Below, one piece after another: positions 54,983-63,858 of a stretch of 64,000 nt of DNA. Position numbers and translations under genes: made by a program. Each line of letters begins with the position of its first letter. Within the stretch, counting starts at the first letter, position 1. The notes below the pieces were generated by a model, which worked only from the letters and a program-made list of their open reading frames with translations, did no database searches and was not told where the DNA came from. Source of the stretch: Diprion similis (lineage: Eukaryota > Arthropoda > Insecta > Hymenoptera > Diprionidae); NCBI RefSeq assembly GCF_021155765.1, contig NC_060112.1, positions 26,440,001 to 26,504,000 on the forward strand. Reading direction: 5' to 3'.

Positions 54983-56518
54983 TAATGCTATTGACAAAAG
55001 TGTAAAATTCCGTTTTCTATCTAACCGAATGAACTGTACATAATATTTAGTTAAATTAAATGATAATTGCAAATTTGAAATTGCCTGTGCATTTACATAC
55101 TATAAATCATACTTGTCACTGCTGCTACGATCAGCTAAAAGAATTCTAAAATTATCACACACACCATGTGCTATGGAAGGAACGTTACCATGTTATGTGA
55201 TAGATTTCAAATTAATTTGATTCAACGTCGCAAGCAATATATCACTGCGTAAGCTTATAAGTAAGCTAAGTCTACATGTTCGACAATGATAAGCTAATCG
55301 CTGCTGCAAGTTATTTCTTTGCAAGAACAATTTTTTCACAGTATTTACACAGAACATGAAAAATAAGTATGGTGAAAAAAAATTTATAATCATCGATTTG
55401 AGCATCAAATTAATTTGAAACGTAATTTTGCGATGGCTTGCAATGTGTTTTTTACTACATAAATATCACGAAATACGACAGTCAATTTTATTGCATTGCA
55501 AGCTATGTCGTTTGGTTTTGTACATGTTCCTAATATTGCAATAGTATTAGCTAATGCGAAAGGATGTTAAAACACGTAGGTCGGAACAACTTGAACTTCG
55601 CTTTGATAAATGTCAAGACGAGAAATAAAGCAGAAACAGAGCTCTGATATCAGCATTCATTCGTTCAATATACTCATTTCATATCTAGTGTATCAAGTGA
55701 AGTTAGGTGAGAGAAATTAATCAACTTGTAACACAAGTGACTCATTCCTTCATTACTTACATCGAATTGATAATGATCATCCGAAAGATTTGATAGTATT
55801 CAGTTATTTACCTGAACTTCAAACAGCACTGCATATCTGTTGATACTTCAAAAGTAATAAAATTTTCAACACTAGTTGACTGTCTGCAGGGTATGTTGAG
55901 CTGAAAAATGTGCATTCTTCAAAGACGTGTTGTGCTTCACATTGGTATTGCATTGCTGTGTCTACTATAACGATTGAAAATCTTTAGTGATAATTGTATC
56001 ATACTAGGATTTCCGAAAATATAAACGATTATTTATACTAACTAGTGTATTCATTTCTTCGACAAAAGTAGGTTCAACAGACACCCAATTAAAACTGTAA
56101 AAAACAAAATTTCGTATTTTTCTGGTTAGTTTTATTTGTGTATTTAATATTTACAATATAAGTCTGTATTGTATAATTATTTGGGTAAATAGATTTGTAG
56201 ATTTTGATACAAAATGCATATAAATATAAAAATAATATATTGGGACCGGTCAAGTTTATATTTGATATTATTACCATAATATCAATTCATAAGTGGAGTA
56301 TTTTCTTCACGTTCTATTTAGATATCAAATAATTAATCGAATATTCTTCTATACCATTGATTGCTCATCCAGAATGATATACTTGAGAATCGAAGGATTG
56401 ATTAGTTACTATCACGAATAAAAAAAAGTTTTCACTTAATATTATCGCTTCCCAGATCTTTTATATAAGTGTTTAACAATCAGACTTCGTAATTGATAAT
56501 GACAGAAATTCGATATGT
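54983..56518. other. Convergent 3' interval between VPS37A and PLOD
   Basis: AT-rich and without a supported gene. An AATAAA near 55624 on the plus strand could end a long VPS37A transcript. Sequence before 56519 should hold the PLOD 3' UTR. Confidence 0.5.
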
Positions 56519-59500
56519 TCAAGGATCGACGAAAGATATCATAATATATCTTGTACCTTTAGTAACCAGTAAACCTTCGTGATAATGAGTGAGTCTTCCA
56601 GGATGCATTAACATCCACCCAGGCTTTGTATCTGTTACGGAACAGTTGTAACGAATGAATCTGCAGCCTCCTCCCTCGTAGTCGATTCCTGCTCTGTTCA
56701 GAGCAATGTTTATTGTATAAGTTGAAGAATCGTGATGAGGACGTAGTGACGGCTGCTCATCGGGACGATATCTGACCATGAAATTCATCAGGGACCTTGG
56801 TGGCTGTATATTAGATGATAAAATGTAATTAGATTTGCCGAAGAGGAAGTAGAGCTTCAACTGAGTGCATGTGCCAGGTTTTTCACTAATCCTACAAGTG
56901 CCTACAAAGTAAAATCTTCGAGTTCTATGTGGAACTAAGTATTAAATCGCAATTAACAGAGAAGCCCAGAGTCCATTTCACCAGTACAACCAAAACCGCA
57001 AGTCCCTAATATCCTATCGCTTACGTAATCCTCATATCCCAGATAAACCATTGTCTGGAGGGGACTGACATATTCCTTAAGAAATTCTAGCCACGTCTCG
57101 TCAAGACCAACTTGATTTGCATGAATGTCACGCGTCGGCACAGCCTCGTAACCCCCATCGAGTCGTGGGTCCTAAAAATATGTAACATGTTAAATGTGTT
57201 CTTACGTCGTGAAAGTATCCTGTAAAGACGAGTTCCTGTAACGGCCTGACATATTCCTTAAGGAAGTACAGCCATTGAGGTTCAAGGTTGACTTGATTTG
57301 TGTGAATGTCCCTCGTAGGTACATTTTCATAACCACCTGATAATCTGGGATCCTAAATTTCGTACAAGAACAATAATCAGTTGAAAATGAAAGTAGACTT
57401 AGCCTTCGCATACTGGAAATTGAATAAATTTTGTTTTGTAAATATAATACTTAGGTAATTGTAAAATAAATTGCCTGTTTAACTTACAGAATTTGTACCA
57501 TCTGACCATTGACCGAATGCTTCCATTATCTCGATCAGTTCCTTTGTAAATCGAGTTGTAACAATTGGAAACCAGAATACGTCTGGACAGGGCTGTTTGA
57601 AACGAACAGAATTGAATAGTATGAAAGAGTACAAGTTATTCATTCAAAGAGCAAATTTAACAGCCGTTTATATAAAATATCCTTTAATCTTAATTCCAAT
57701 TTATCGAAAAATACTAGCATGAAGAACTTGAGTGTTACCTGAATTGGAGTCTTATTGGGATTGAAATTTTCCGTGTAATTCTCGTGAATGTATCTCTTTT
57801 GCCAGTCTAATTTGTTCTCGAATATTTCATACATCTCTGGGTTCGTTAGCTTGGTATCAAAGCTATCAGAGCTAACGAGATGCCCAAATTCAACCCTGTT
57901 ACTGACATACATGAAGATATCTTTCTCCCTGTTGCTGTAAGCGAAGGACATGCTCACGTCCAAGTCTCCCACGGAGTACGATGGCCTGGTCTCCTTATTA
58001 TTTATAAGAGAAGCATTAATGAGATAGCAGTTGCTGACAAATGGTACGTTCCACAAGCCTCTGAAAATATAGAAAAAAAGCCATTGAAAGTATTTATTTT
58101 TGTAATCGTTCTTCAAAAAATCTGGCAACAGATTTGTTGGCAATGTGCGCTGCTCGTGACATAAATTCTGAAGATCCGAGATTGCTTGCCATGATTTAAA
58201 AATAGAAATAGCCGTAAACAGTGTGTGTATGCGATCATAGAGTGCTTTTATATGGAGAAGTACAGACAGCTATTACGCTGTTTTTCACAGGACGTTATTT
58301 AATGTTTTGGCGGGCAGCAGCCCTGATATCATGATTGGCCAATGGAGTTACTGGTGATAACTAATACATAATTATCCAATTGAGATTCATAACTCTTGAC
58401 ACTCTGGTGACCGCGAGTCTATCGCGCCTGTCGCTCATTCATATTTTTGGCTGGAGAGGCGGAGAGAACCTTTCTCCAAAAGGATTAACATACAAGCTGC
58501 TTAAAGGTCGACAAAATATTCTGGTAAGAAAATCTCCAATATATCTAATTATTATTAACACACAGTTAATTGTTCCCTCGATTCTATTAATTTTCATAAT
58601 TTTCATATCTTGTTATGATGAAAGGATATTCCGTTTGAAATGCGATCAAGCTTGCTGCTAAATAAATAAAACTTCATGAACTTGAAGTTGAAGAGTGTAT
58701 GTAATTAATAATAATATTTTCAAGTACAATTACTGGTCAAGGTGGCAAAATATGTTTACATCGGTTAACATAATGAATGACTTAGTTATGTAATTTAAAT
58801 TACAGCACTCAAATGAGGCAATGGTGGTTCATCCATTTATTCCTATTGATGACAGTCTGTACTGTAGGCTTGAACGCGGCGAAAGGTGGTGGTGGAAGAA
58901 GGGGTGGCAGGGGACGTGGAAGATTGTATGGTTCCCGTATGCCAATCCTAATTCCACACCAAAACACCGCCAGTACTAATTATTACGAGAACAAAGATGT
59001 GGGTATTTTCTAGTATTAAGTTGTAATATCTTGAACAGTAGTAATCTGCTGGATTTTTAGGGGGCAAAAATTGTGAAAGCTTCGCATTTTGAGCTGGACT
59101 ACATGCTGGGAAGAAAAATAACTTTCTTTTGCATGGCAAGGGGTTTCCCGAGACCAGAAATAACTTGGTTCAAAGATGGTATTGAGCTCTACCACCACAA
59201 ATTCTTCCAGGTAACTTGAACCTTTTTTCTTCCCAGTAGCATGAATAATCTTACACTCTAATATTTTAATATATTAATTTGTTTTTGCGTTCTGTTTGAG
59301 GTGCACGAATGGCCGATGGGGAATGACACGATGAAGTCAAAAATGGAAATTGATCCTACGACACAGAAAGATGCCGGTTACTACGAATGCCAAGCGGATA
59401 ATCAGTATGCCGTTGACAGACGTGGATTCAGAACAGACTATGTTATGATCACCTACTAAATATATTTATTTATTGAGTATAAGCCAGTTTATGTGAAAAA

Positions 59501-62500
59501 GATTTGTGAATATCGCTTGTGAGACAAAGCTTTTCCAAATTTGTAGCTTACTTCAATATTTCTTTGAACCAAGTCATTTTAATTATATATATTATATATA
59601 TGCATATGTACAAATGACGATATTCCATTCAGTTCATGTCTCTGTACGTACATCTTGGCTTATATTCAAAAATAGTACATTTATGTATAAGAGAAGAAAA
59701 TAAATTATTTCTGCATTACAGTGACCCAAGAGGCAAAATACATATTGTTTCAAAATTCGCACAATGAAGAAAATTTGCCCTACGTGAGATAGACGCGCAT
59801 ACAGAATTGCGACGTGTGGAGAATGATTGAATTTTGTAAGACTGATTCGTTCCAATTACTAGATTATTCGTGTTTAAAGTGTTTCATCTGATTTACAGTT
59901 GATTTGTATTTACTATGATTAATGTAATTAAAAACTCTGTCAACATTATTCAAATTCAGAAATAATATGTAATGTACGTAATTGAAACAATTCAAAAATA
60001 TGGTACTGCAAATACTATAACTATAAACCAGCTACATTTGTTTACTTTTAAATAATTAAAACTGTAATTAAACAATTGTTAATTTATTCTCTTGACCTTA
60101 TTGCCATTGTGAATGCAAACAGTTACAGAAAAAATAAAAACAATTCTAGAAATATTTATTCTCACATTCCAAGTTCTACGAACGGTAGCTATAGGACGTA
60201 CCAATTCCTGTTGCTCGATAGGTCCCCCTATTCCCGTGTTATTAACAAATAATTGGCCTGGATGAGGGTGATATCATTATGACTTGAACAGTTGCGCGAG
60301 TATAGCTGCCTACGATTTGTTTCAGTTATTTTCCAGAGCAATTTTTTAATCCGCGACAAATGATCCGTACAAAGTAATCAAAATTATCATAAAATACAAT
60401 GTTGTGAAATATGTAATGGAAAAATGATATGTCCTAGAGTGATATCGAGCGATTCAAAGTTAGGGTAGATGAAAGTTTTCTTCCCATAGTAACGAGAGAT
60501 CGTTTCACCAACCCTGAATTAATCGGCGTAGTCAATTTCGTTGCCGCATTCAATTTTACCGTGATTATTAATTGAGAAGAATGTTATGTAAGACCAAAGC
60601 AGAGATTATGCACATAATATAGTTAGATACTATCTGGAATAAGTATGTAATAGATAGGAGTGGACACTGGGGGAGTAATGAGGAGGTGAGTGGCTGTCAG
60701 TTGCATTGCTGTTCTGTACCATCGCTAAACGTTTCTTTTGCACAGTGAGTAGATATTTACCAACCGACTTAACTATTTGTTCCAAAACGATATAAAAAAT
60801 ATTGCAACATTGTAACTCTAAAGATTAATTACTCTCTTCCTAGAGCATTTTTAAATTGCTTTTTGTCCCTTGTAATTTACCATTTCCTTTATCTTGTTAA
60901 TTTATTTGGCAATGCGCCACGGATAAATTATCCAACTTACGATTATTACTTTACAGGATACAATGAATTATTCAAAAGCTGTAATATTACTAGCAATCAT
61001 TTTTCTACATTGTTATGAAATATCTGCAAGAAGAGGTCGAGGAAGAAGCAGAAATAAATCGCGAGTTCAAATTGGCCTGCCAATCACCGGAAAATATCGA
61101 GATCAAGAAAGTGATCAATATTACAACAACAACAATGTGCGTATTAGAAAATATCCACACTACAATTGACAGACTCTCGAACACAGCAGCGAACGGATCA
61201 ATGTATACTCTACGGTCAGTTATTCGATGTCAGCGGTAAGAATTAACCATAATGTCATTATTTCAGGGTGCCAAAATCTTATCGTCATCCCATTTTGACT
61301 ATGAATATGTTTTGGGGCATAAAATCGCATTTGTATGCTCCGCTCGAGGTACTCCGCGCCCTCACATTACATGGTTCAAGGATGGTACAGAAATTTACAC
61401 TCACCTCTACATGAACGTTAGTACAAAGAAGTTGTGTACAGTAATACGAGGAATGAAGTTAGATGAAAATTAATGTTCATTCAAGACTTTTCTACTTTTA
61501 GATACATGAATGGCGAACAGGAACTGACAGAGTAAAATCGAAACTGGAAATTGATCCAGCAACACAAATGGATGCCGGGGTTTACGAATGCACAGCAGAT
61601 AACATGTACAGTATCGACAGGCGATCCTTCAAGACTGACTTTTCTATTGCCTTTGATTAAAGTTTTGGGTAAGGTGGAATCAGATAATGTATCATTTGCT
61701 CGTCACGTTTGACGTTAAAGAAACCGTTTTCAATGATCTTCACCAGTATGCAGGACGTGGAAAACACAAATGTATCGTAGTTTTTAACAATATTAACATG
61801 CGAGGATTAATTTTCATCCCTTGTCCCATCAATCAAATTTTATTTCCTATTAACACAATTCTTTTCGTCCATCACATCTGTAATCCAACGTGTGCAGATT
61901 TTGAATCTTACCTTCGTTCGTTCTGTACGATTTCCATGTAATCCGAACTTCTGGCGTAAAAGCCATCGTTTGTAAGAGCGCCCCAAAAGTTGCTCCAAGC
62001 TTTGTAAGGCCTGACGAGTAGTGGAGCTACTATTCCTCGCTGTTGTTCTACCAATAATTTGATTGTATTCTTGTTGTCCAAATGAGCTTCCGAGTCGATT
62101 GAAAGTAATCCGGAACATTTTTTTAGCAGACAGTGATCACTATTTGAGAAAATAAATTGCATTTAATGATGTGTATCTCTTCAGATAAATGGCAGTATAG
62201 ATGATCTGTTCCTATCAAAATTTGTGTTCTGTATATCAATTTAAAGCGATCCAGTGTGAATGAAGATGACGTTTTCATAAGCTCATGTCAGTTTATTAGA
62301 AATGATTTGGTAAGATTTTAAATTGAGTCTCGATAATATCACTGGTTGTTTTCGACCATTCGAAAAATCGGGTTCTCCAAAAAATAATTTAAATGTAAAT
62401 TAAATTTGTGATTCCCCTAGATTCACCAATAAGTAATATCCATAAGGTGAATAAAAAGATAGTAACAAGTAGTGTAGATTTGAAATTAAATATTTCATGC

Positions 62501-63858
62501 ATACTTACAAAGCGAAATCTCTAGCTCTGACTTCGGATATATCGTCCTGTGGTAATATTTGTTTTATGCTTTTGTACTCGTGTGCGTAAGATTCAACGAA
62601 CTCGTTAATAAGTTCGGAATGATAAGGAACATTGTTGTATATGAACAAATGAAGCTTAGACTTAGGGTAGCCCTGCTTATAAATTTTCTCAAAAAACTCC
62701 TCTAAAAACGGTGTTGGGTTGACCAGGAATATAGAGATCAGTATCACAGGATAATTCTCAACTTTCACCACACCTAATTCGATCGTTTCATCCCAACAGT
62801 TTAAACACCCTTCTTCAGGGCTCCAAGCCTTTGCTAAGTAATTACCAAGGGCATTTAATACCAATTTGCTGTGACCATTCCCATGAAGAATAAGCGGCAC
62901 AGTGTTGTAAGCTATGTTCTGTAGATACGCGTCATTTCCTTTGAATCTCAACTCAACGTCAGCTGAAATATAATATTGATGAATACTTTTTCAACAATTC
63001 AATTATTCTGTCTTTTGCTTGTTTCTCATGATTGCTAATGTTACATTGCTACATTAGATGCTCACCAACTGCACCGTTAAGATTCTGGAATATTTCCGAT
63101 CTGTGATCTAATTTCATGTTATGTTTTTCCCTGAAGTCAGGATCTAGGTACAACTCAGTATAAAATCTTTGATCGTCATCTCCGTCATTGAGCTCGGATG
63201 TTGTTAAAATTGCATAAATATTTGATGCGTAGCCAATAAATCCACCAGAATTTAAGTACCGTTTACCACGACCCACACTTGGATATTTTGACTCAGCGGA
63301 TCTATCAGGCCAGCAATACCCCTCCGCAGAAAAGAGAACTCTGGCGTTAAATGTCTTGAATTTTGCTACAATAGCCTCAAGACTGTTGAGAAAGAGTACG
63401 TCATACCTGGAAATAATATGCTGGCTAATCGTTTCGTTTTTGTCTCAAGAAAGTGAGAAAATTGTTGTTTAATTTCATTGATAATTACCCGTCCGTAAAT
63501 AAAATTATTTTATTCTTATCATCCTTGTAAGGGCGCAGCTGTTCCTTAAACAAATTAACCTTAAACCCTCCACCAATAGTGCGATGTACATCGCCTCCTT
63601 TCCATTTTTCACCTAATCCAAGCACATGGACCTTGTCTCGAAAGCCATTGACAACGGCTGATCGAATGTACCTCTTGTAACCATCAGTCTCATTAGTTGC
63701 CACAGTAAATACAAGGACATCTGAAAGAAAAGATTAAAATATATTAAGTTAAAAAAACTCCTCAGTGTGGTAAATTCAGTTTTGTGCATACTACCTAGTA
63801 TGAAAGTTATAATAATAATAATAATAATAACAACAACAACAATAATAATAATAAGCAT
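56519..63858 (-). CDS. Plod: Procollagen-lysine 2-oxoglutarate 5-dioxygenase / glycosyltransferase (PLOD)
   Basis: Minus-strand exons: 63858-63795 (putative first), 63720-63489, 63406-63066, 62962-62509, 62139-61912, 58060-57739, 57592-57488, one of two alternatives (57352-57206 or 57171-57025) and 56803-56519. They join in phase for 725 residues, matching vertebrate PLODs (about 730). The N-terminal glycosyltransferase domain keeps FTDGYDVLF (DxxD). The middle domain has SIDSEAHL where vertebrates have a DxD, and then [17 protein letters not shown]. The C-terminal dioxygenase has [12 protein letters not shown] (HxD iron ligands), [11 protein letters not shown] (distal His), GTRY (2-oxoglutarate Arg) and the standard VDP ending. 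PLOD hydroxylates collagen lysines in the endoplasmic reticulum, and some members add Gal/Glc. The 3.85-kb intron 58061-61911 contains two genes on the plus strand. The first exon is the least certain part. Confidence 0.92.
57025..57171 (-). CDS. Plod: PLOD alternative exon 8b
   Basis: This exon is 147 nt, phase 0 to 0, and encodes 49 residues starting [20 protein letters not shown] and ending LGYEDY, with acceptor tttttag and donor gtaagc on the minus strand. It aligns without gaps to the upstream exon 57206-57352 (33 of 49 residues identical by my count). Either can join exon 7 (...SDGTNS) to exon 9 ([12 protein letters not shown]...) in frame. It encodes the start of the dioxygenase domain, just before the iron-binding motif. 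Confidence 0.85.
57206..57352 (-). CDS. Plod: PLOD alternative exon 8a
   Basis: This exon is 147 nt, phase 0 to 0, and encodes 49 residues starting [20 protein letters not shown] and ending TGYFHD, with acceptor aatttag and donor gtaaga on the minus strand. Only 34 nt (57172-57205) separate it from exon 8b, too short to be removed as an intron, so a mature mRNA should carry one or the other. Vertebrate PLODs have GGYENVP here, so 8a looks nearer the ancestral form. Confidence 0.85.
58813..59459 (+). CDS. Secreted single-Ig-domain protein A (OIG-4-like)
   Basis: Exons 58813-58998, 59061-59210 and 59301-59459 join at phase 0 for 164 residues. A signal peptide ([17 protein letters not shown]) precedes a Gly/Arg-rich basic stretch ([13 protein letters not shown]) and then one immunoglobulin domain. 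Its features are ITFFCMARG with first Cys, ITWFKDG with the core Trp, and [11 protein letters not shown] with the second Cys. There is no transmembrane segment, so secretion is expected. The arrangement matches the one-Ig-domain OIG-4 family, which in nematodes is secreted at neuromuscular junctions; function here is inferred only by family. An AATAAA is at 59699. The gene lies inside a PLOD intron on the opposite strand and is a tandem paralogue of the gene at 60963. Confidence 0.88.
59460..60962 (+). other. Spacer between the two nested Ig genes
   Basis: No gene is supported. It includes the likely 3' UTR of the first Ig gene (AATAAA at 59699) and the presumed promoter and 5' UTR of the second. 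All of it is intronic to PLOD on the minus strand. Confidence 0.5.
60963..61660 (+). CDS. oig-4: Secreted single-Ig-domain protein B (OIG-4-like)
   Basis: Exons 60963-61136, 61267-61416 and 61502-61660 join at phase 0 for 160 residues. A signal peptide ([17 protein letters not shown]) precedes a basic [12 protein letters not shown] stretch, a linker ([17 protein letters not shown], then YYNNNN) and one Ig domain. Its features are [16 protein letters not shown] and [11 protein letters not shown], with closing [12 protein letters not shown]. Exons 2 and 3 have exactly the same lengths (150 and 159 nt) as in the neighbouring paralogue. Its sequence resembles what I remember of insect OIG-4 more closely than copy A does. 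Its stop codon is about 250 nt from a PLOD coding exon on the other strand, so the transcripts may overlap. Confidence 0.88.
62140..62508 (-). other. PLOD intron
   Basis: A 369-nt intron between the donor after 62509 (TT/gtaagt) and the acceptor before 62139 (caaatag). A plus-strand AATAAA at 62150 could end a long 3' UTR of the second Ig gene. Nothing else was seen. Confidence 0.6.
63811..63853 (-). repeat. Trinucleotide microsatellite (AAT)n(AAC)n(AAT)n
   Basis: On the plus strand this reads as about six AAT-type units, four AAC units and four AAT units. On the minus strand it is in frame as ATT/GTT codons within the putative first coding exon of PLOD, where it would encode Ile and Val runs. 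Confidence 0.8.

Follow-up and report, generated by a model that had tools for sequence, protein, structure and literature searches.

A tandem-duplicated and probably mutually exclusive exon pair in the lysyl hydroxylase domain of the PLOD gene of Diprion similis

The window (the whole 64,000-nt stretch of Diprion similis DNA that was analyzed) carries a PLOD gene on its minus strand, for which we placed nine coding exons from 63720-63489 to 56803-56519, including two homologous alternative exons, here termed A and B. All exon borders are GT-AG and the reading frame is continuous across the nine coding exons; the map begins at the first coding exon placed, 63489..63720. The features are listed below, with LH3 residue numbers where the exon was aligned to that enzyme, and with the basis of each placement in brackets.

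63489..63720, minus strand: first PLOD coding exon placed in the window (exon placing by frame and splice borders)
63066..63406, minus strand: PLOD coding exon (exon placing)
62509..62962, minus strand: PLOD coding exon (exon placing)
61912..62139, minus strand: PLOD coding exon (exon placing)
57739..58060, minus strand: PLOD coding exon (exon placing)
57488..57592, minus strand: upstream constitutive coding exon, 105 nt, with a phase-0 end (exon placing)
57206..57352, minus strand: first alternative exon (A; 147 nt; phase 0), which aligns to LH3 597-645, with R632, E636 and the tail FHD (sequence)
57172..57205, minus strand: spacer of 34 nt, with the donor of A, a single yUnAy match (its A at +16) and the acceptor of B (sequence)
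57025..57171, minus strand: second alternative exon (B; 147 nt; phase 0), which aligns to LH3 597-645, with S632, T636 and the tail EDY (sequence)
56519..56803, minus strand: final coding exon, downstream of the pair, containing the HHD motif and the stop codon (exon placing, LH3 alignment)

The coordinates, 147-nt lengths, phase 0 and 34-nt spacer of the pair agree with the first-pass annotation of this DNA, as does an identity of 33 of the 49 residues; its label 'exon 7' for 57592-57488 was wrong, this being number six among the coding exons that we placed. The protein resembles PLOD over its full length and contains the catalytic LH domain, with identities of 659/703 to the Neodiprion lecontei protein and 592/703 to that of Athalia rosae. 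Apart from the A-B spacer, the introns range from 82 to 3851 nt. Inside the 3851-nt intron lie two small genes in the orientation opposite to PLOD (plus strand, 58786-59459 and 60927-61660), each with one immunoglobulin domain (Pfam Ig_3, E 3e-13 and 8e-15), which by eye resemble copies of each other.

A and B are neighboring homologous exons of equal length and phase, identical at 93 of 147 nt. By codon position their identities are 32, 40 and 21 of 49 (positions 1, 2 and 3), so that B is neither a recent copy of A nor a product of haplotype collapse. Both exons have AG/GT borders, and the donor of each matches the consensus at six of nine bases, a score shared by three of the gene's six other donors (the remaining three have 7, 8 and 7). 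An LH-domain query of the 269-Mb, 60-contig assembly returned four exon matches, every one in this same PLOD gene, and no second PLOD gene was found; a second gene or a haplotig as the origin of B was rejected on these grounds. That the pair might itself be an assembly artefact or a collapse, which the first-pass annotation had allowed for, now has a negligible probability: the exons differ at 54 of 147 nt, the 328-bp stretch holding them occupies a single place in the assembly, and similar exon pairs are present in other arthropods.

Isoforms built with A or with B both remain open through to the stop codon. Joining A to B would add 49 residues in frame and skipping both would remove 49 in frame, while retention of the spacer breaks the frame. 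Because the frame is kept with two of these exons or with none, surveillance of the frame would be blind to either outcome, and exclusivity must come from splicing. The spacer contains one match to the branch-site consensus, TTAAC, with its A at position 16, that is, a predicted rather than a mapped branch site. Work with human extracts reported a requirement of about 50 nt from donor to branch site: at 46 nt splicing was lost, and at 35 nt so was assembly (PMC6692369). Should this human requirement carry over to insects, the spacer can supply the exclusivity; the limit of about 50 nt is a human measurement, and insect spliceosomes may tolerate less. At a distance of 16 nt the donor of A and the branch site of B would never both be occupied, so that splicing of A to B is very likely barred and each mRNA would carry A or B. 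The earlier argument was that 34 nt is below any plausible intron size; the decisive length is rather the 16 nt from donor to branch site. Control of the choice by RNA structure was rejected: there was no Rfam match in 56400-58200, and 56804-57487 folded no better than shuffles (z +1.22; 18 of 20 shuffles at least as good).

Similar arrangements are described in alpha-tropomyosin and at OGDH 4a/4b, where homologous neighboring exons are likewise separated by a branch site too near the donor (PMC6692369, PMC7969005), in other genes and another lineage. The intervening intron of OGDH is given as 118-131 nt in birds and mammals (PMC7969005), against 34 nt for the PLOD A-B stretch, and human OGDH has distant branch points reported at 25-41 nt from the donor, whereas the A-B branch site is a consensus match only.

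We collected 196 different proteins containing the segment, among the matches listed (best 120 of 1860, 5 of 5, and best 120 of 389). The 49-aa exon B query yielded only five proteins, so a termite B segment with its flanks was used as query; clustering at 90% identity hides the second isoform of most species. This search for the duplicated exon in relatives, proposed by the first-pass annotation, found that A- and B-type segments recur and that the pair is not confined to sawflies. A lies directly before B in at least five complete gene models (P0006, P0007, P0036, P0043 and P0072), which represent the bee Dufourea, the ant Camponotus, the stick insect Timema, the copepod Tigriopus (P0072) and the ostracod Darwinula, and in a sixth, from Trachymyrmex (P0008), in which A is cut. 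Elsewhere kindred species present one type each: Cryptotermes A vs. Zootermopsis B, Neocloeon A vs. Cloeon B, Daphnia magna A vs. D. pulicaria B, and Frankliniella A vs. Thrips palmi B. The types tend to differ at positions 606, 621, 632, 636, 640, 643 and 644; outside the gene-order lineages we assigned types from the motifs at 632, 636 and 643-644, and diagnostic scores there are therefore partly circular.

The gall wasp Belonocnema kinseyi has beside P0020 a second, divergent PLOD-like protein (P0099), with an A-like segment and a changed tail. In a PLOD gene model of the flatworm Fasciola gigantica (P0003) two copies of the capping-loop motif occur, of which the first breaks off after HMRQ and precedes a second LH stretch; this may be an effect of annotation or assembly. 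Aphids (P0104 and P0108, isoform X1) and their kin Adelges and Daktulosphaira (P0088 and P0113, isoform X2) show two segment types that carry distinct isoform names; that of Adelges groups with B, and the Rhopalosiphum segment is unplaced. The pair may have diverged faster in aphids and their kin.

The six gene models with A followed by B are written as a single protein holding both, one of them as a named isoform X1 (P0072, Tigriopus), and such joining stays in frame; they thus speak for inclusion of both exons in a single mRNA, whose enzyme would have the 49-residue segment twice. We consider this very improbable for the sawfly gene, and take the six models as annotation joins. It would need a 34-nt intron with a branch-site match at +16; both types occur together in none of the 37 relatives without an organism label, among the matches listed (23 of the 37 are transcript-like, with contigs under 3 kb and more than 650 aa); and it is hard to see where the LH fold would accommodate a second gate and helix. 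Were the spacer longer, an mRNA with both exons would be possible, and in frame.

The same 37 relatives bear on whether B is used at all. A clear B-type segment is joined to the following segment in four of them (P0060, P0141, P0152 and P0183). Of these, P0060, P0141 and P0152 come from contigs of 2.5-2.6 kb with ORFs of 727-732 aa, and are therefore intron-free, and P0183 is a TRINITY transcript. B might nevertheless be chiefly regulatory or decaying, either rarely used or yielding a truncated, inactive enzyme: its identity from lineage to lineage is lower than that of A (means of 30.3 vs. 34.3 of 46 residues), and one bee gene model (P0123, isoform X2 of Xylocopa sonorina) reads past the end of B and stops 13 residues on. 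Against this, B in the window has an open frame and GT/AG borders, the gate residues are invariant in all segments listed, and most B rows, transcript-like contigs included, have B joined to the following segment; we judge a chiefly regulatory or decaying B improbable. As written, the P0123 model would encode a protein that lacks the Fe-binding part.

The first-pass annotation's proposal of mutually exclusive use is thus supported by the spacer, by the logic of the frame and by relatives that join either type to the flanking segment, and for D. similis itself it is a prediction from the genome sequence. We consider it likely that PLOD exons A and B arose by tandem duplication, exclude each other in splicing and are both in use, which suggests that one PLOD gene yields two versions of a collagen-modifying enzyme.

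To place the swap in the enzyme, residues were numbered by LH3 chain 8zgc_A (match from 562), which reproduces the published H595, D597, R599, D611, H613, F639 and Y642. Both isoforms match LH3 strongly (E 1e-80 for A, 1e-77 for B; 178 of 178 query residues aligned). The exon corresponds to LH3 597-645; it takes in the capping-loop residues 597-610, a helix at 618-639 and the greater part of the loop 640-646. In the published LH3 descriptions, the capping (gate) loop spans 590-610, with R599 plugging the active site; F639 and Y642 line a pocket for L715 of the other subunit; and residues 640-646 contact the gate loop of the partner monomer. For L230, Y798 and Y801 are described as making the equivalent pocket, and K804 as lying in the cleft, in which charge reversal cuts activity on collagen while sparing a short peptide. 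L230 Y798, Y801 and K804 align to LH3 639, 642 and 645, of which position 645 is uncertain because the insect loop is one residue longer than that of LH3.

Of the 16 residues that differ between A and B, three fall within the 21 positions 597-617 and 13 within the 28 positions 618-645 (Fisher P = 0.03, for a split at the helix start that was set after the differences had been seen), seven of these within the final ten. Every one of the 206 segments compared (LH3, the window's two, and relatives taken from the matches listed) has the gate residues D597, R599, D611 and H613. Position 595, just before the exon, is Asn in the window protein, with D597, D611 and H613 kept in A and B alike; among the 196 relatives listed it is Asn in 184, His in 10 and Ser in 2. 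H595 of LH3 is a second-iron ligand, assigned in the literature to a set called fully conserved across the LH family (PMC6082870). AlphaFold models of a B-type and an A-type ant protein (P0013 and P0029) are alike, with mean pLDDT of 86.0 and 85.7, a helix at 619-637 in both, and low confidence at about 591-610 and 641-650; the closest solved structure to both is LH3 (TM 0.90/0.95 for P0013, 0.89/0.94 for P0029).

The two isoforms had been said to differ beside the catalytic site, with differences clustered at positions that looked substrate-facing, and a mapping of the differing residues on a lysyl hydroxylase structure had been proposed. In our mapping 13 of the 16 differences lie in the helix and loop (618-645) that the LH3 and L230 literature locates beside the gate, at the dimer interface and collagen cleft; the gate residues are identical, and 'substrate-facing' is only partly right. 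By alignment, then, the swap is one that spares the gate residues and mostly alters the adjoining surface. With high confidence, and as the sequence shows, both isoforms keep the frame, the likeness to LH3 and D597, R599, D611 and H613. We hold more tentatively, at slightly less than even odds, that what sets them apart is mainly the helix after the capping loop and the loop 636-645, that is, the aromatic pocket, the dimer cleft and the contact with the partner's gate. These features together suggest that both are probably active lysyl hydroxylases, which would differ in the strength of the dimer, in how they bind the collagen chain or in gating that depends on Fe.

The age of the pair was approached through a tree of 50 chosen rows of the 206 segments (49 columns), from which the two copies of P0008 and the first, broken copy of P0003 are absent. 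A starred clade (97/84) unites B segments of bee, stick insect, termite, mayfly, thrips and damselfly, thus of six insect orders. The B of the window lies outside this clade, in a second, unstarred B group (82/86) with two ants, Phymastichus, Leptopilina, Planococcus and Adelges. The tree is weakly resolved, with three starred and 32 open of its 46 branches and the bootstrap unsettled; all B rows together need three changes, and A and B of Darwinula group with each other at low support. When six lineages were labeled by gene order alone, identity between segments in the same gene-order position exceeded that of all other labelings (2/64, counting the mirror); three of the six are Hymenoptera, and with one hymenopteran kept the figure is 2/16. 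Mean identities, of 46 residues, were 34.3 for A-A between lineages, 30.3 for B-B between lineages, 30.4 for A-B within lineages and 29.7 for A-B across lineages, and crustacean B exons showed no greater likeness to insect B than to the insect A exons.

AU tests rejected neither a single B clade (P = 0.51 for insects, 0.37 with crustaceans) nor lineage-specific sets of A plus B (lowest P = 0.094, Timema); nine sets went without rejection, and the tenth already formed one side of a branch. With an exon of 49 columns, phylogenetic proof of a single origin was not reached. The AU tests are thereby compatible with independent tandem duplications in several arthropod lineages, such that the sawfly pair would be real and exclusive and yet unrelated to the pairs of other orders. 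The position of the window's B outside the starred clade and the B-B identity between lineages, no higher than A-B within them, point the same way, and convergent exon duplication in orthologous genes has been documented (PMC9741552). Independent origin is countered by the starred clade itself, by the gene-order labels, which beat every other labeling, and by the higher identity of A-A between lineages (34.3) than of A-B within lineages (30.4); we consider it unlikely. The supported B clade of six insect orders indicates instead that one pair probably predates the winged insects; that it is common to winged insects is probable, and that it is common to insects and crustaceans is possible. We lean toward an origin before the winged insects, which may reach back to the ancestor of insects and several crustacean groups, with a history in flies, moths and beetles that may include reduction to one exon.

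Lineages with a single type fit into this scheme as follows. All six named chelicerate and centipede rows among the matches listed are A-like. A single hybrid form that begins with EAV and ends like A was found in 19 of 20 flies, 17 of 18 beetles, all 23 moths and butterflies and the one caddisfly, counting named rows listed, behind which a second isoform may be hidden; the exceptions were the fly Glossina (P0125) and the beetle Agrilus (P0101). Drosophila Plod (CG6199), another insect PLOD and single in its genome, makes one protein only, its two annotated transcripts being described as differing by 86 nt in the 5'UTR (PMC3044864). This single form may be why the pair went unnoticed.

Tandem-duplicated, mutually exclusive exons are a well-known and, by published account, mostly ancient kind (PMC9741552). 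Human P4HA1, the collagen prolyl 4-hydroxylase, offers a functional parallel, as a collagen-modifying Fe/2-OG hydroxylase described with mutually exclusive splicing (PMC9189910), in a different gene family from PLOD. Among the literature matches listed, none named the PLOD exon pair, by gene or by kind, in its title or the start of its abstract.

In humans, lysyl hydroxylase work is split among three genes, and vertebrate LH1-3 arose by gene duplications. Human PLOD2 also has a cassette exon, 13A, which is included or skipped to give LH2a and LH2b and lies outside the catalytic domain. The A/B pair resembles it in producing two lysyl hydroxylase isoforms by splicing, and differs in that a stretch of the catalytic domain itself is supplied by either of two homologous exons. 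The PLOD gene of the window seems to divide lysyl hydroxylase work by splicing. The most far-reaching interpretation, to which we assign a probability of roughly 50%, is that arthropods have obtained two collagen lysyl hydroxylases from one gene since before winged insects arose, or even since an ancestor shared by insects with several crustacean groups, through a swap of the exon for the gate and for part of the dimer pocket and collagen cleft, an arrangement lost in flies, moths and beetles.

The PLOD pair adds to a known kind of exon pair, in a gene where it touches on a structural question that is still open. With two natural enzymes differing at 16 positions, the parts played by the dimer cleft and the capping loop can be put to the test, and comparison of A with B separates residues that differ by type from the invariant D597, R599, D611 and H613. 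If this far-reaching interpretation is true, the exon swap would be an old alternative to the gene duplications behind vertebrate LH1-3, missed in Drosophila through loss.
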